Assembly (NCBI GenBank): GCA_944322885.1
Contig: CALUQH010000004.1
Span: 1-50,842, forward strand
Source: Candidatus Gastranaerophilales bacterium
GTDB taxonomy: Bacteria; Cyanobacteriota; Vampirovibrionia; Gastranaerophilales; Gastranaerophilaceae
Direction of reading: 5' to 3'
Length of the DNA: 50,842 nucleotides
The position numbers and the translations under genes are program-made. The notes beneath the pieces are model-generated. The model made no database searches and was not told the origin of the DNA. It was given only the letters and a program-made list of their open reading frames with translations. This document shows positions 9,272 to 40,841 of the stretch, piece by piece (position 1 is the first letter of the stretch; each line of letters opens with the position of its first letter).

Positions 9272-10006
9272 TTAAGGCAGACAGTCAAAATATCCTTTTC
9301 CGGAACCGTCAGGACACGTATTTGCGATTGCATACTTAGTACATGCAAAACCGTTATCAGAAGCGTCAGAATCCCTTGAGCAATTTCCGTCGGTCCATTT
9401 ATAACCAAAATATGTATCAGATGTATTAGCACAATCTTCATCTTCCTCTGTACAATCACGCCATTGAGCGGTCATAGGTTCCAAATTACAATTATTCAGA
9501 TTCAAATGAAAAAAGAATAAATCATGACCGAAAGCATTAGGACCTTTGTTAACACCGTTTGTATCAATACTTATCATATTACCGAATGAGGCATTAGTAC
9601 AAAAAGATATAACAAGTCCATCTCCAAGTTGAGAAACATCAGTATACCATTGAAAACAATTTGGATGGATTTTTGCAGAAGTTACTTTTTTTGAATAAGT
9701 CTTAAAATCTGTATAATCCAAATGTGTAGTTTGTTGTAGTTTTACATTATTAAACTGCTCAAACAATAATTGTTTTATCTCATTACTGCTGCTTGCAGGA
9801 CAACTTATAAATTCTGATTTAACAGGAATAATAGCCTGAGAGAGAACCGAATAAGACTTTTTAAATCTTGTTTCAAGGGCCTTTCTTTGATAATTCAAAA
9901 GCAAGGACGGCATAGTCATTGCGGCGACTACTCCTATTATGCCTAGGGTAATAAGAACTTCTGCAAGAGTGAATGCATATAATTTCCCTTTAAAGTGATG
10001 TAACAT
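9272..10006 (-). CDS. Type IV prepilin-like protein 1 (short form)
   Basis: From the ATG at 10006 the product has 244 residues. It has an 11-residue basic leader and then the cleavage-and-helix motif A/FTLAEVLITLGIIGVVAAMTMP of type IV pilins and pseudopilins. The C-terminal domain is cysteine-rich (NCFQWYTD, CTNASFG, WRDCTEEDEDC, GYFDCLP), typical of large prepilin families of Gastranaerophilales-like genomes. The mature protein would sit in the inner membrane or a pilus-like fibre after prepilin-peptidase cleavage. The ATG is 6 nt after a TATACT box with no ribosome-binding site. The frame stays open upstream to a TTG at 10249 and would join an ATG at 10296 if the G run at 10260-10269 gained one base. 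Confidence 0.85.
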   Translation of the reverse strand: MLHHFKGKLYAFTLAEVLITLGIIGVVAAMTMPSLLLNYQRKALETRFKKSYSVLSQAIIPVKSEFISCPASSSNEIKQLLFEQFNNVKLQQTTHLDYTDFKTYSKKVTSAKIHPNCFQWYTDVSQLGDGLVISFCTNASFGNMISIDTNGVNKGPNAFGHDLFFFHLNLNNCNLEPMTAQWRDCTEEDEDCANTSDTYFGYKWTDGNCSRDSDASDNGFACTKYAIANTCPDGSGKGYFDCLP

Positions 10007-10012
10007 ATCACT

Positions 10013-10040
10013 AGTATAACATTTTTTATTTTCTTTGCAA
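10013..10040 (-). promoter_or_regulatory. Internal promoter for leaderless prepilin 1
   Basis: TTGCAA (10035-10040), a 16-bp spacer and TATACT (10013-10018) with an upstream TG form a good minus-strand promoter inside the long leader frame. The ATG at 10006 starts 6 nt after the -10 box. Confidence 0.55.
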
Positions 10041-10259
10041 GTATATTTTTTAAATTTTTGCTTTTGAAAAGAGAGTAGTTTATAATTGTTTTCTTTATTA
10101 CTGATAAGCGAGAGGACAAAAGTTGGTGGCAATAAATCAAAATCTTTCCTTACCTTTCCGAGTAATGAAAGAAATTTATATTTTAGTGAATTTTGTTCTC
10201 TGTAAAAAACTTTACTTCTCTGCCTCTTAACCTCTTTGCCGCACTCCAAGCCGTGAGTG

Positions 10260-10269
10260 CCCCCCCCCC
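10260..10269 (-). repeat. Homopolymer G10 tract in the prepilin 1 leader
   Basis: Ten consecutive C on the given strand, read as G on the coding strand. Tracts of this length slip readily during replication. Confidence 0.9.
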
Positions 10270-10315
10270 GAAGTTCTTGTTTTTAAACTCTTTCATATAT
10301 TTTCTCCTTTCGTTA

Positions 10316-31240: not shown

Positions 31241-31285
31241 AAAATGATTATCCCTATAATTTTTTACCAGGGATAATCATTTTTT
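31241..31285. terminator. Bidirectional terminator overlapping the prepilin 2 C-terminal codons
   Basis: AAAATGATTATCCCT (31241-31255) pairs with AGGGATAATCATTTT, followed by TT and an AT-rich stretch. The right arm is also the coding sequence for the last residues KNDYPW and the stop of prepilin 2 on the other strand. Confidence 0.85.
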
Positions 31286-32159
31286 ATCTGCCAGCCATCA
31301 AGCATGATAACAGCACTGCAGGCATCACCTGGGCCATAATAATCAGGTCCTGGAGACTCTTTATAACAACCTCCGGTACGTATAGGTCCATGTAATAATC
31401 TTTCTCTATCTAACTGCCCATCTCCTGTATAAGGTATTGTTCCGGCAAGACCAAACGGCTTAAATGATGTATCTTTTGAACTGTCAAGAACAAAAGTAAA
31501 AACATCTTTTCCGCTAAATGCAAAAGGTTTCGGATTTTTTACATATACACGAACGCGTGTCACATTTTCATAAGCCCCTCCATAACGTATAAACCCATAA
31601 GCTAAAGGAACACCGCCGGTAACAACCATATAATGCGGAACCTGCGCATTAGCGTTATTCAAAGACACATCATAGCCTAAACGATGTATACCGGAAAAAC
31701 CAAAACATTTACTACCAGCCTGACATTTCCCTGAATTAATTACTTTTACATAAGGTTCAAAATACGTCTGAACCCACTTATCTAATTCATCTGCTTTGCG
31801 ATAACGCCAATCTGAAATCATACCGTGTTCGGCTTCTGCCATTTTTAGAACTTGATTTAACTCAGAATAAGTCTTTCTGACAGATTCTTCCACAATCTTT
31901 TTACGATGATTAATTATCATACCGGGCATAGTCAAAGCAGCAACAACTCCGAGTACACCAAGAGTAACTAAAACCTCTGCAAGAGTAAAGGCTACTTTTT
32001 TATTACATAAATAATCTAATAAGGGAAAATATTTAATTTTCGGTGAACTATGTTCACAATAAAAAACTTTGCATCTTGACCTATTAGACTCTTTTCGCAG
32101 GAGAAAACTTAGAGCGCCCCCCCCCCGAAGCTATTGCTTAATTCTTTTAGTATTTCCAT
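31264..32159 (-). CDS. Type IV prepilin-like protein 2, out of frame as read (G10 tract)
   Basis: The pilin part contains VAFTLAEVLVTLGVLGVVAALTMPGM, then a variable domain with cysteines ending ACSAVIMLDGWQIKNDYPW. No ATG, GTG or TTG lies in frame near the cleavage site. The natural start is the ATG at 32159, with AAGGGAG 7 nt upstream and a good promoter. It reads MEILKELSNSF, then G10, and meets a stop five codons later. With an eleventh G the frame gives FGGGGALSFLLRKESNRSRCKVFY and runs into the pilin: 298 residues with a 57-residue leader. The leader is related to that of prepilin 1. As written, expression needs slippage or a changed tract. Confidence 0.75.
32117..32126 (-). repeat. Homopolymer G10 tract in the prepilin 2 leader
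   Basis: Ten C on the given strand, read as G on the coding strand, codons 12-15 of the upstream frame. The flanks (AGCTTC before, then CGCTCTAAG) resemble those of the tract at 39929 in the opposite orientation. Confidence 0.9.
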
Positions 32160-39131: not shown

Positions 39132-39899
39132 TTGCAAAAAAATGCCTTTAACTTTTCGGAAGTTATGATAGCTATCGGAATAATAGGAGTTGTCGCAGCT
39201 CTTACTATGCCCGGAATTGTTGCACACTACCACCAAAAAGAATATGTCACGCAACTCCAAAAATCATTAAGCCAATTTGAACAGGCTATGCAAATTATAA
39301 TGTTCAGACATGAATGTACTGATATTATATGTACCGGAGCATTTAACGGGACATCCTCTGATGCTCAATGGAATAAAAATTTTGAAGAAGAAATAACAAA
39401 ATCAATAAAAATTATAAAAACAGCAAAAAACGGTATTGCAATGGAGCCGCAATTAGAATCAGCTCCATTGAAACCTGAAAAGACGAAACTGAGTATTCAA
39501 GCAGACTGGCGTTCAACAGAGGGTTTTAAATTCTTGCCTCCTGACGGCGTACTATACCTTGTAATTCCAAAAAATTGTGAAAGTGTGCCTTTCCCGAATT
39601 TAAGCACAATAAAAAATATTTGTGCGGAAGTTACCATAGATGTAAACAGTTTACGCCGCCCAAATCAATACGGCAGAGATATACACAAATTCATAGTCGC
39701 ACAGAACGGACATTTATACCCTATGTACGGACGTGAATATTCCAATGCAACTACCGGCAGCGCATCCGGCAGCAGCTACTGGCGTACAAATCCTGAATTA
39801 TGTGCCGGAGAAGGTCTTTTGCATCAAGCTCCGGATAATGTCAGCGGTGATGGCTGCGCTGCAAGAATTATGGAAGACGGTTGGAGGATGACTTATTAA
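39132..39899 (+). CDS. Type IV prepilin-like protein with TTG start
   Basis: TAGGAG lies 6 nt before the TTG at 39132, so I accept TTG as start. The 255-residue product has a very short leader (MQKNA) cut before FNFSEVMIAIGIIGVVAALTMPG, the hydrophobic helix, and a C-terminal domain with cysteines (HECTDIIC, NCESVPF, IKNICAEV, ELCAGEG, DGCAARIMEDGWRMTY). The DGW near the end also occurs in prepilin 2. Unlike its neighbours it has no long leader or homopolymer. The next prepilin unit begins 5 nt after its stop. Confidence 0.85.
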   Translation: MQKNAFNFSEVMIAIGIIGVVAALTMPGIVAHYHQKEYVTQLQKSLSQFEQAMQIIMFRHECTDIICTGAFNGTSSDAQWNKNFEEEITKSIKIIKTAKNGIAMEPQLESAPLKPEKTKLSIQADWRSTEGFKFLPPDGVLYLVIPKNCESVPFPNLSTIKNICAEVTIDVNSLRRPNQYGRDIHKFIVAQNGHLYPMYGREYSNATTGSASGSSYWRTNPELCAGEGLLHQAPDNVSGDGCAARIMEDGWRMTY

Positions 39900-39928
39900 G
39901 ATTATGATATCAAAAAAGCTTAGAATTG

Positions 39929-39938
39929 CCCCCCCCCC
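39929..39938 (+). repeat. Homopolymer C10 tract between two prepilin genes
   Basis: Ten C. On the opposite strand its flanks (TTC before, then CAATTCTAAG) resemble those of the prepilin 2 tract, so the tract element occurs here in reverse orientation relative to the pilin. Confidence 0.9.
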
Positions 39939-39956
39939 GAAACCCTGACAAGCAGA

Positions 39957-39971
39957 AGGCAAGAGGTCAAG
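39957..39971. repeat. 15-bp sequence shared with the rpmG-tRNA spacer
   Basis: AGGCAAGAGGTCAAG occurs here and, inverted, at 48506-48520. Both copies are preceded at short distance by CAGAAG. Confidence 0.6.
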
Positions 39972-40023
39972 AAGGGAGGAGGGCAGGCCTGTATCGACGA
40001 GCAAAGCCTGCTTAAAAATAAAT

Positions 40024-40097
40024 ACCTTCCCTTATTAGGGAAGGTTAGGATGGGTTTCAAACAATACCCACCCCAGCCCTCCCTAATCAGGGAGGGG
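40024..40097. repeat. REP-like double palindrome translated in the prepilin 3 leader
   Basis: CCTTCCCT-TATT-AGGGAAGG (about 40025-40044) and CCCTCCCT-AATC-AGGGAGGG (about 40078-40097) flank GATGGGT...ACCCACCCC. A similar palindrome lies at 50540-50573. Here the element is inside the open leader frame and encodes LPLLGKVRMGF...PPQPSLIREGK. Confidence 0.75.
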
Positions 40098-40841
40098 AAG
40101 AATAATTACCTGAAACGAACTTATTCACTTAAGAAAAAGACCGCGTTTACACTGGCAGAAGTTTTAATCACTCTCGGAATTATTGGTGTTGTTGCAGCAA
40201 TGACTATACCTACGATTATCGGGAATTATAAAAAACAGGAAATTACATCAAAACTAAAAAAATTTTCATCAACAATGCAGAATGCTCTAAACATGGCAAC
40301 TACAGAATATGGAGATATTTCAACTTGGCAAAATCCGACAACACAAGGAGATGAAGAAGAAACCAATAAATTTTTTACAACATATATATTACCATTTTTA
40401 TCAGGTGTAAAAAATTGTAGTGCCGGAGTAAGCGATAGAGAATGCAGTAATTTAAGACAAGGTTTTGCCCCTGATGCCCCAAATAGAACTAATGCTTCTC
40501 TGTTTGTTTTCAACGATGGAAGCTGTTTTTCTCTTTATACGGGAGGGGCAGATACTCTACACGCAAACATACATTTTCTATATGATTATAACTGCAAAGG
40601 CAAACCTAATGAATACGATAAGGATAAATTTTCATTTATTCTCCTCATAGATTCGCTAAATAATTCTACTTTAAGGAACAGATTTAGGGCGGGTAGTGCA
40701 TCAACACATGAACTTACAAACCGGGACGATTTACTGGATGCCTGTAATAAACATACACAGACACATTATAGAGGCGGCTGCTCTGCATTAATTCAGTTCG
40801 ACGGCCGGGAAATTAAAGATGACTATCCGTGGATACATTAA
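40050..40841 (+). CDS. Type IV prepilin-like protein 3
   Basis: From the ATG at 40050 the product has 263 residues: a 32-residue basic leader (MGFKQYPPQPSLIREGK..., LKKKTA) and then FTLAEVLITLGIIGVVAAMTIPTI. The pilin domain has paired cysteines (KNCSAGVSDREC, GSCFSLYTG, GGCSALIQFDG) and ends EIKDDYPWIH, like the end of prepilin 2. The leader contains a REP-like palindrome read as protein. The frame is open further upstream to 39924 and would join the ATG at 39904 if the C10 tract were C11. GGAAGG lies 8-9 nt before the ATG. Confidence 0.87.
   Translation: MGFKQYPPQPSLIREGKNNYLKRTYSLKKKTAFTLAEVLITLGIIGVVAAMTIPTIIGNYKKQEITSKLKKFSSTMQNALNMATTEYGDISTWQNPTTQGDEEETNKFFTTYILPFLSGVKNCSAGVSDRECSNLRQGFAPDAPNRTNASLFVFNDGSCFSLYTGGADTLHANIHFLYDYNCKGKPNEYDKDKFSFILLIDSLNNSTLRNRFRAGSASTHELTNRDDLLDACNKHTQTHYRGGCSALIQFDGREIKDDYPWIH

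Follow-up and report, generated by a model that had tools for sequence, protein, structure and literature searches.

Type IV prepilin frames lie one base out of register behind ten-base G or C tracts in a genus of Gastranaerophilales

In Bifidobacterium breve, pili are kept OFF by an intragenic G tract and are turned ON by slippage during replication (PMC9187656). The genes concerned, bbr_0113 and bbr_1889, belong to sortase pili, and their tracts are of mixed length, with 37% G11 and 59% G12 in culture (PMC9187656). In meningococcus there is a bias toward insertion at or below G10 (PMC4085013), and elongation slippage in bacteria, as Wagner (1990) is cited in PMC3711429, is known mostly at A/T runs. 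Our literature search on Gastranaerophilales pilins, phase variation, and prepilin frameshifts, with most subscription journals outside its reach, returned nothing specific and no description of the system presented here.

The window, that is, the whole stretch of 50,842 nucleotides of Candidatus Gastranaerophilales DNA that we analysed, contains three prepilin loci with a ten-base tract. At locus 3, the earlier note had reported a C10 tract on the coding strand and an ATG that joins the pilin only with an eleventh base, and we confirm the C10 at 39929-39938 on the plus strand (G10 on the minus strand). With ten bases in the tract, the leader ORF (39904-39948, plus strand; ATG at 39904-39906, stop at 39946-39948) reads MISKKLRIAPPPKP and then stops, and the prepilin frame (39939-40841, plus strand) is reached from the leader only with +1. 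If the tract is 11 C, ATG 39904 joins the prepilin frame (312 aa), and the leader would continue via an extension into KKKTAFTLAEVLITLGIIGV, the type IV prepilin motif (PF07963). The offset at this locus thus stands, but the strict need for an eleventh base does not, as an in-frame ATG at 40050 sits 3′ of the tract. Read on the G strand, the tract lies in the common DNA pattern TTTC-G10-CAATTCTAAGCTTTTTT (39913-39942, minus strand). ATG 39904 has no well-placed Shine-Dalgarno, the nearby GGAGG ending 16 nt upstream, and 4 nt before this ATG is the stop of a prepilin-like ORF without a tract (39132-39899, plus strand; TTG start, MQKNAFNFSEVMIAIGIIGVV), which is likely cotranscribed with locus 3 and may be translationally coupled to it. 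The extension between tract and prepilin also contains inverted-repeat DNA, CTTCCCTTATTAGGGAAG and CCCTCCCTAATCAGGGAGGG, at 40024-40100, and the joined frame translates it (as LPLLGKVR..PSLIREG). Extensions of this sort are present at many prepilin loci and resemble a coding repeat element.

The other two loci of the window carry G10 on a minus coding strand, and all three share the ten-base tract and the same +1 offset, as the earlier note had claimed. At locus 1, the tract is at 10260-10269 and the ATG, with AAAGGAG upstream, at 10294-10296; the prepilin frame (9272-10259) needs +1 from ATG 10296 and has a later in-frame ATG. At locus 2, the tract is at 32117-32126, the ATG, with AAAGGGAG upstream, at 32157-32159, and the prepilin frame at 31264-32116; because no start codon is present between the tract and FTLAEV, +1 is obligatory here. 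The later in-frame ATGs at loci 1 and 3 lie 11 and 32 codons, respectively, before the FTLAE motif, so at these two loci the +1 requirement is likely but not obligatory. PF07963 scores above its cut-off at 40131-40205, 31930-31992, and 9914-9976, which places the N-terminal methylation motif in all three loci. All nine overlapping G8 matches in the window belong to the three tracts, against a shuffled mean of 0.18 (none of 100 shuffles reached nine). Because they have related leaders and tract flanks, the three loci do not count as independent events; their coherence draws its weight from the compensated reading phases, the use of both coding strands, and the genus-wide length presented below.

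A genome-wide search for C/G runs with a test of their frames, as the earlier note had proposed, revealed a pattern far larger than three loci. The source genome (1.86 Mb in 40 contigs) contains 70 C/G runs of at least 8 bases, 4, 3, 58, and 5 of them having lengths of 8, 9, 10, and 11, and in 59 of the 70 cases the run separates a start codon from a type IV prepilin ORF. PF07963 has 91 matches in this genome at E up to 0.1. Among the tract-less prepilins examined, most begin with a short leader of the usual kind, for example MKKSLGFTLAEV, and have a Shine-Dalgarno; the same holds for the ORF upstream of locus 3. Three further loci of the source genome (L011, L041, and L068) consist of a leader-like start and a tract with a broken or absent prepilin and still have exactly ten bases, which hints that the length is held even without a prepilin.

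We then have the frame itself, counted in bases from the ATG to the prepilin in three genomes: the source, a relative with 0.7-Mb contigs (G007, from which 54 tracts were analysed), and G017. Starts were chosen by rule: among ATGs with a Shine-Dalgarno-like match, the one nearest to 28 nt upstream was taken. Of the 143 starts, 141 have such a match, the ATG of locus 3 being an exception. Ten-base prepilin loci need +1 in 45 of 50 cases in the source, 47 of 48 in G007, and 51 of 55 in G017, a total of 143 of 153, in all three reading phases and with either G10 or C10, so the shared offset extends beyond the window and the random frames that the earlier note had named as its refutation did not appear. 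The downstream phase compensates the tract phase at 97 of 104 G tracts (38 expected) and 46 of 49 C tracts (20 expected) when downstream phases are permuted, a comparison that does not give a true probability, as the loci are related by duplication. In the length-10 frame, a stop is reached at a median of 7 nt past the tract (27 nt in the third frame), and 61 of the 143 comparable loci in the three genomes have no ATG, GTG, or TTG between the tract and the mature pilin. The loci that are ON number 7 in the source, 1 in G007, and 2 in G017, and tracts of 8 bases are in frame in both prepilins that have them. In samples of 30 loci per length from the genus, ten-base prepilins need +1 in 20 of 20 cases, 11-base ones are in frame in 15 of 19, and 9-base ones are out of frame in 26 of 26, with 9-base prepilins about as frequent as in-frame 11-base ones. 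This is the arrangement of a contingency locus: a gene for a surface structure has a repeat tract in its 5′ portion, and the length of that tract sets the frame. Common descent of a single flank, considered as the full cause of the shared offset, is made less likely by the differing, compensated phases, yet may still hold, since a tract can slide via edge substitutions with the sum unchanged. A non-prepilin gene in two species (L095 and L104), MotB/OmpA-like by eye (NNIFWTTMADLLL), has an N-terminal tract with the same +1 offset.

Ten-base tracts also occur inside non-prepilin ORFs, which we named from their translations (glycosyltransferases, an iron-sulphur protein, an aminotransferase-like protein, and others). 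These are in frame in 10 of 10 clear cases, and several sampled non-prepilin tracts of 9 or 11 are out of frame. The in-frame ten-base tracts mean that the called length is right and that the prepilins are truly one base short.

Across 24 genomes of the genus, C-G10-C, C-G11-C, and C-G9-C occur 999, 68, and 63 times, so that length 10 makes up 88% of C-flanked tracts of 9-11, and C-flanked G9, G10, and G11 tracts are absent from 15 genomes of other families of the order. The sample holds one genome per species, mostly MAGs, and the counts per genome are lower bounds because some assemblies break at tracts. In the three genomes above, 83-91% of tracts have exactly ten bases, and lengths of 9, 11, 12, and 16 are also seen. 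Programmed slippage, too, displays an offset and a slippery run that are both conserved from species to species. A motif scan of GTDB contigs returned Candidatus Gastranaerophilales and Melainabacteria MAGs, some uncultured-bacterium records, and one Helicobacter. That Helicobacter genome, which served as a control, has 26 tracts spread evenly over lengths 8-13 in mixed frames, which is the picture expected from ordinary poly-G phase variation. Within the genus, G002 has 104 PF07963 matches and only about five C-flanked tracts, and G013 has 17 matches and no such tract. MutS1 is above cut-off in 23 of the 24 genomes, and MutL is present in 23 of 24; G013 is the sole genome of the genus without a MutS1 match and also the sole one without C-G10-C, a single case in a genome that is 92% complete. 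At G017 contig ends (L391/L392, L402/L405, and L394/L399/L400), 141 identical bases are common across the tract, and L394 and L399 are almost identical in leader and body but have tracts of 9 and 10 bases, respectively; these shared ends may stem from paralogy or from tracts that differ in length within the population.

Along each contig, the G run keeps to one strand with few switches, regardless of gene direction. GC skew marks the replication strand, and the G run is on the strand of positive GC skew in 64 of 71 cases (windows of at least 9 kb), with 41 genes co-oriented and 20 anti-oriented. This polarity suggests a replication-linked process or an orientation that allows faithful copying of the tract. 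The flank pattern TC-G10-CAATTTTAAGCT, with CAATTTTAAGCT-like sequence after the run, is common to both gene orientations; CA also follows many Helicobacter tracts, which cautions against reading much into the first two flank bases. Leaders and prepilin bodies combine differently between loci (L188, L207, L210, and L217). At L188 (1501 and 2369), two bodies that are 92% alike follow unrelated leaders, and L207 and L217 have a common leader (87%) and a different body start.

We tentatively favor a slippage switch, OFF by default, that serves a large prepilin repertoire with a ten-base set point, and we place our confidence in it slightly below the midpoint. The short leader has an ATG and a ribosome-binding site of its own, and the G10 or C10 tract follows about 27 bases later. 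At length 10, translation would enter the wrong frame and stop at once, and one added base would join leader to prepilin and so give the prepilin its signal segment. The +1 would most likely arise as a rare expansion to 11 in replication, that is, by phase variation, such that most cells keep most pilins silent while a few cells express some, and the same ten-base set point would keep tract-bearing glycan-type genes ON. The anatomy, the frames, the length distribution, the conservation across the genus, and the strand polarity are direct observations, to which this reading would add expansion at a useful rate and a length of 10 held by mutation bias together with selection. Glycosyltransferase and similar genes are classic phase-variable targets, and tracts inside such genes, in frame at 10, count for the slippage switch, as does the +1 offset at 143 of 153 loci with its compensated phases and immediate stop. 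The B. breve switch is a close precedent for it, and the insertion bias of meningococcus also speaks in its favor. Because polarity tracks GC skew and not gene direction, and G10 and C10 transcripts are alike, a DNA-level process is indicated; a DNA slippage switch accounts for which genes carry tracts, for the glycan-type genes being in frame, and for the polarity. Counting against it are a length far tighter than the 8-13 of Helicobacter, 9-base prepilins that are not rarer than in-frame 11-base ones, contrary to an active 10-11 switch, the small number of ON loci, and the rarity of a +2 offset that would be equally OFF. The presence of MutS1 and MutL also counts against it, since switching and tract mutation should then be slow; this favors, if anything, selection for a length of exactly 10.

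Alternatively, the tract may be a site of programmed recoding at which RNA polymerase or the ribosome slips, with one base added or a -1 ribosomal step, to yield a fixed share of full-length prepilin. We take this to be a close rival, if not the probable reading. It better explains why silent prepilins have 10 bases and not 9 or 12 and why in-frame loci are so scarce, and it agrees with the strict +1 offset in all phases throughout the genus, the frame 0 stop right past the tract, the intact MutS1 and MutL, and the in-frame 8-base tracts, which are too short for much slipping. However, G10 and C10 would have to be equally effective in RNA, yet polarity follows replication; the in-frame ten-base tracts of glycosyltransferase-type genes are left unexplained; and the three loci with a broken or absent prepilin keep their ten bases. 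We found no stimulatory folded RNA 3′ of the tract (mean fold z of 0.11, n = 143 loci) and on that ground reject a ribosomal frameshift with an RNA stimulator. Extended to the genus, the proposition would be that most type IV prepilins (about 50-100 genes per genome in tract-rich species) are expressed only by programmed slippage at an invariant ten-base signal, one base short by design, whose polarity is set by the replication strand and not by the gene, and this we consider possible though not probable.

It is unlikely that the ten-base element is primarily a DNA site, such as a replication-oriented recombination hot spot that exchanges leaders and pilin bodies, with the offset secondary. 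The flank shared by both gene orientations, the replication-strand polarity, the variable pairing of leaders and bodies, and the 141-base identical contig ends of G017 fit such a site, but the offset and early stop are too consistent for a secondary effect, ordinary homologous recombination among paralogues could give the exchange, and plain repeats also yield shared contig ends. Systematic under-calling of 11-mers, one of the three causes offered by the earlier note, is rejected, the other two, a shared OFF state and slippage as normal expression, both staying plausible, and an artefact of sequencing or assembly in which real 11-mers are called as 10 is very improbable: poly-G is difficult for Illumina chemistry (PMC9187656) and G017 contigs end at tracts unusually often, but internal non-prepilin ORFs are in frame at 10 without exception, the same assemblies contain called 11-, 12-, and 16-mers, 23 of 24 same-genus assemblies agree, and 10 is the commonest length in almost every tract-rich genome of the genus, with contig names that come from more than one assembler. 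A chance coincidence of three loci is ruled out by the genome and genus counts.

If the DNA slippage switch is true, this would be among the largest coordinated phase-variable pilin repertoires known to us, and the default length would separate default-OFF pilins from default-ON glycan-type genes; if programmed slippage is true, one recoding signal would serve dozens of genes per genome. Under either reading, gene finders will truncate or mis-start tract-bearing prepilins, and the replication-strand polarity offers a direct handle on how homopolymer tracts stay at one length.

The prepilins themselves are typical in their FTLAEVLITLG motif (PF07963) and intact bodies, and unlike usual type IV prepilins in that a tract splits off the leader and, in many cases, a long extension precedes the processing site. 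As in bacterial programmed transcriptional slippage and -1 frameshifting, there is a slippery run, a conserved offset, and an early frame 0 stop, but here the run is G10 or C10, dozens of genes are involved, and the downstream structure is absent. As in the poly-G contingency loci of Helicobacter, Campylobacter, and Neisseria, G/C tracts lie in surface genes and their length sets the frame, whereas those loci, like our Helicobacter control, have spread lengths and mixed frames, and here 83-91% are exactly 10 with one dominant offset. The B. breve switch is similar in that a gut commensal carries a G tract between a leader ORF and a wrong-frame pilin ORF, the reference genome is OFF, and an indel is needed for ON. 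Unlike the two B. breve loci with mixed lengths and sortase pili, there are here about 60 loci of one length on both strands, and the ORFs 3′ of the tracts are type IV prepilins, whereas the B. breve type has a sortase-dependent (LPXTG) pilin encoded with its sortase. The kind is already known from Bifidobacterium pili; the scale here is far larger.
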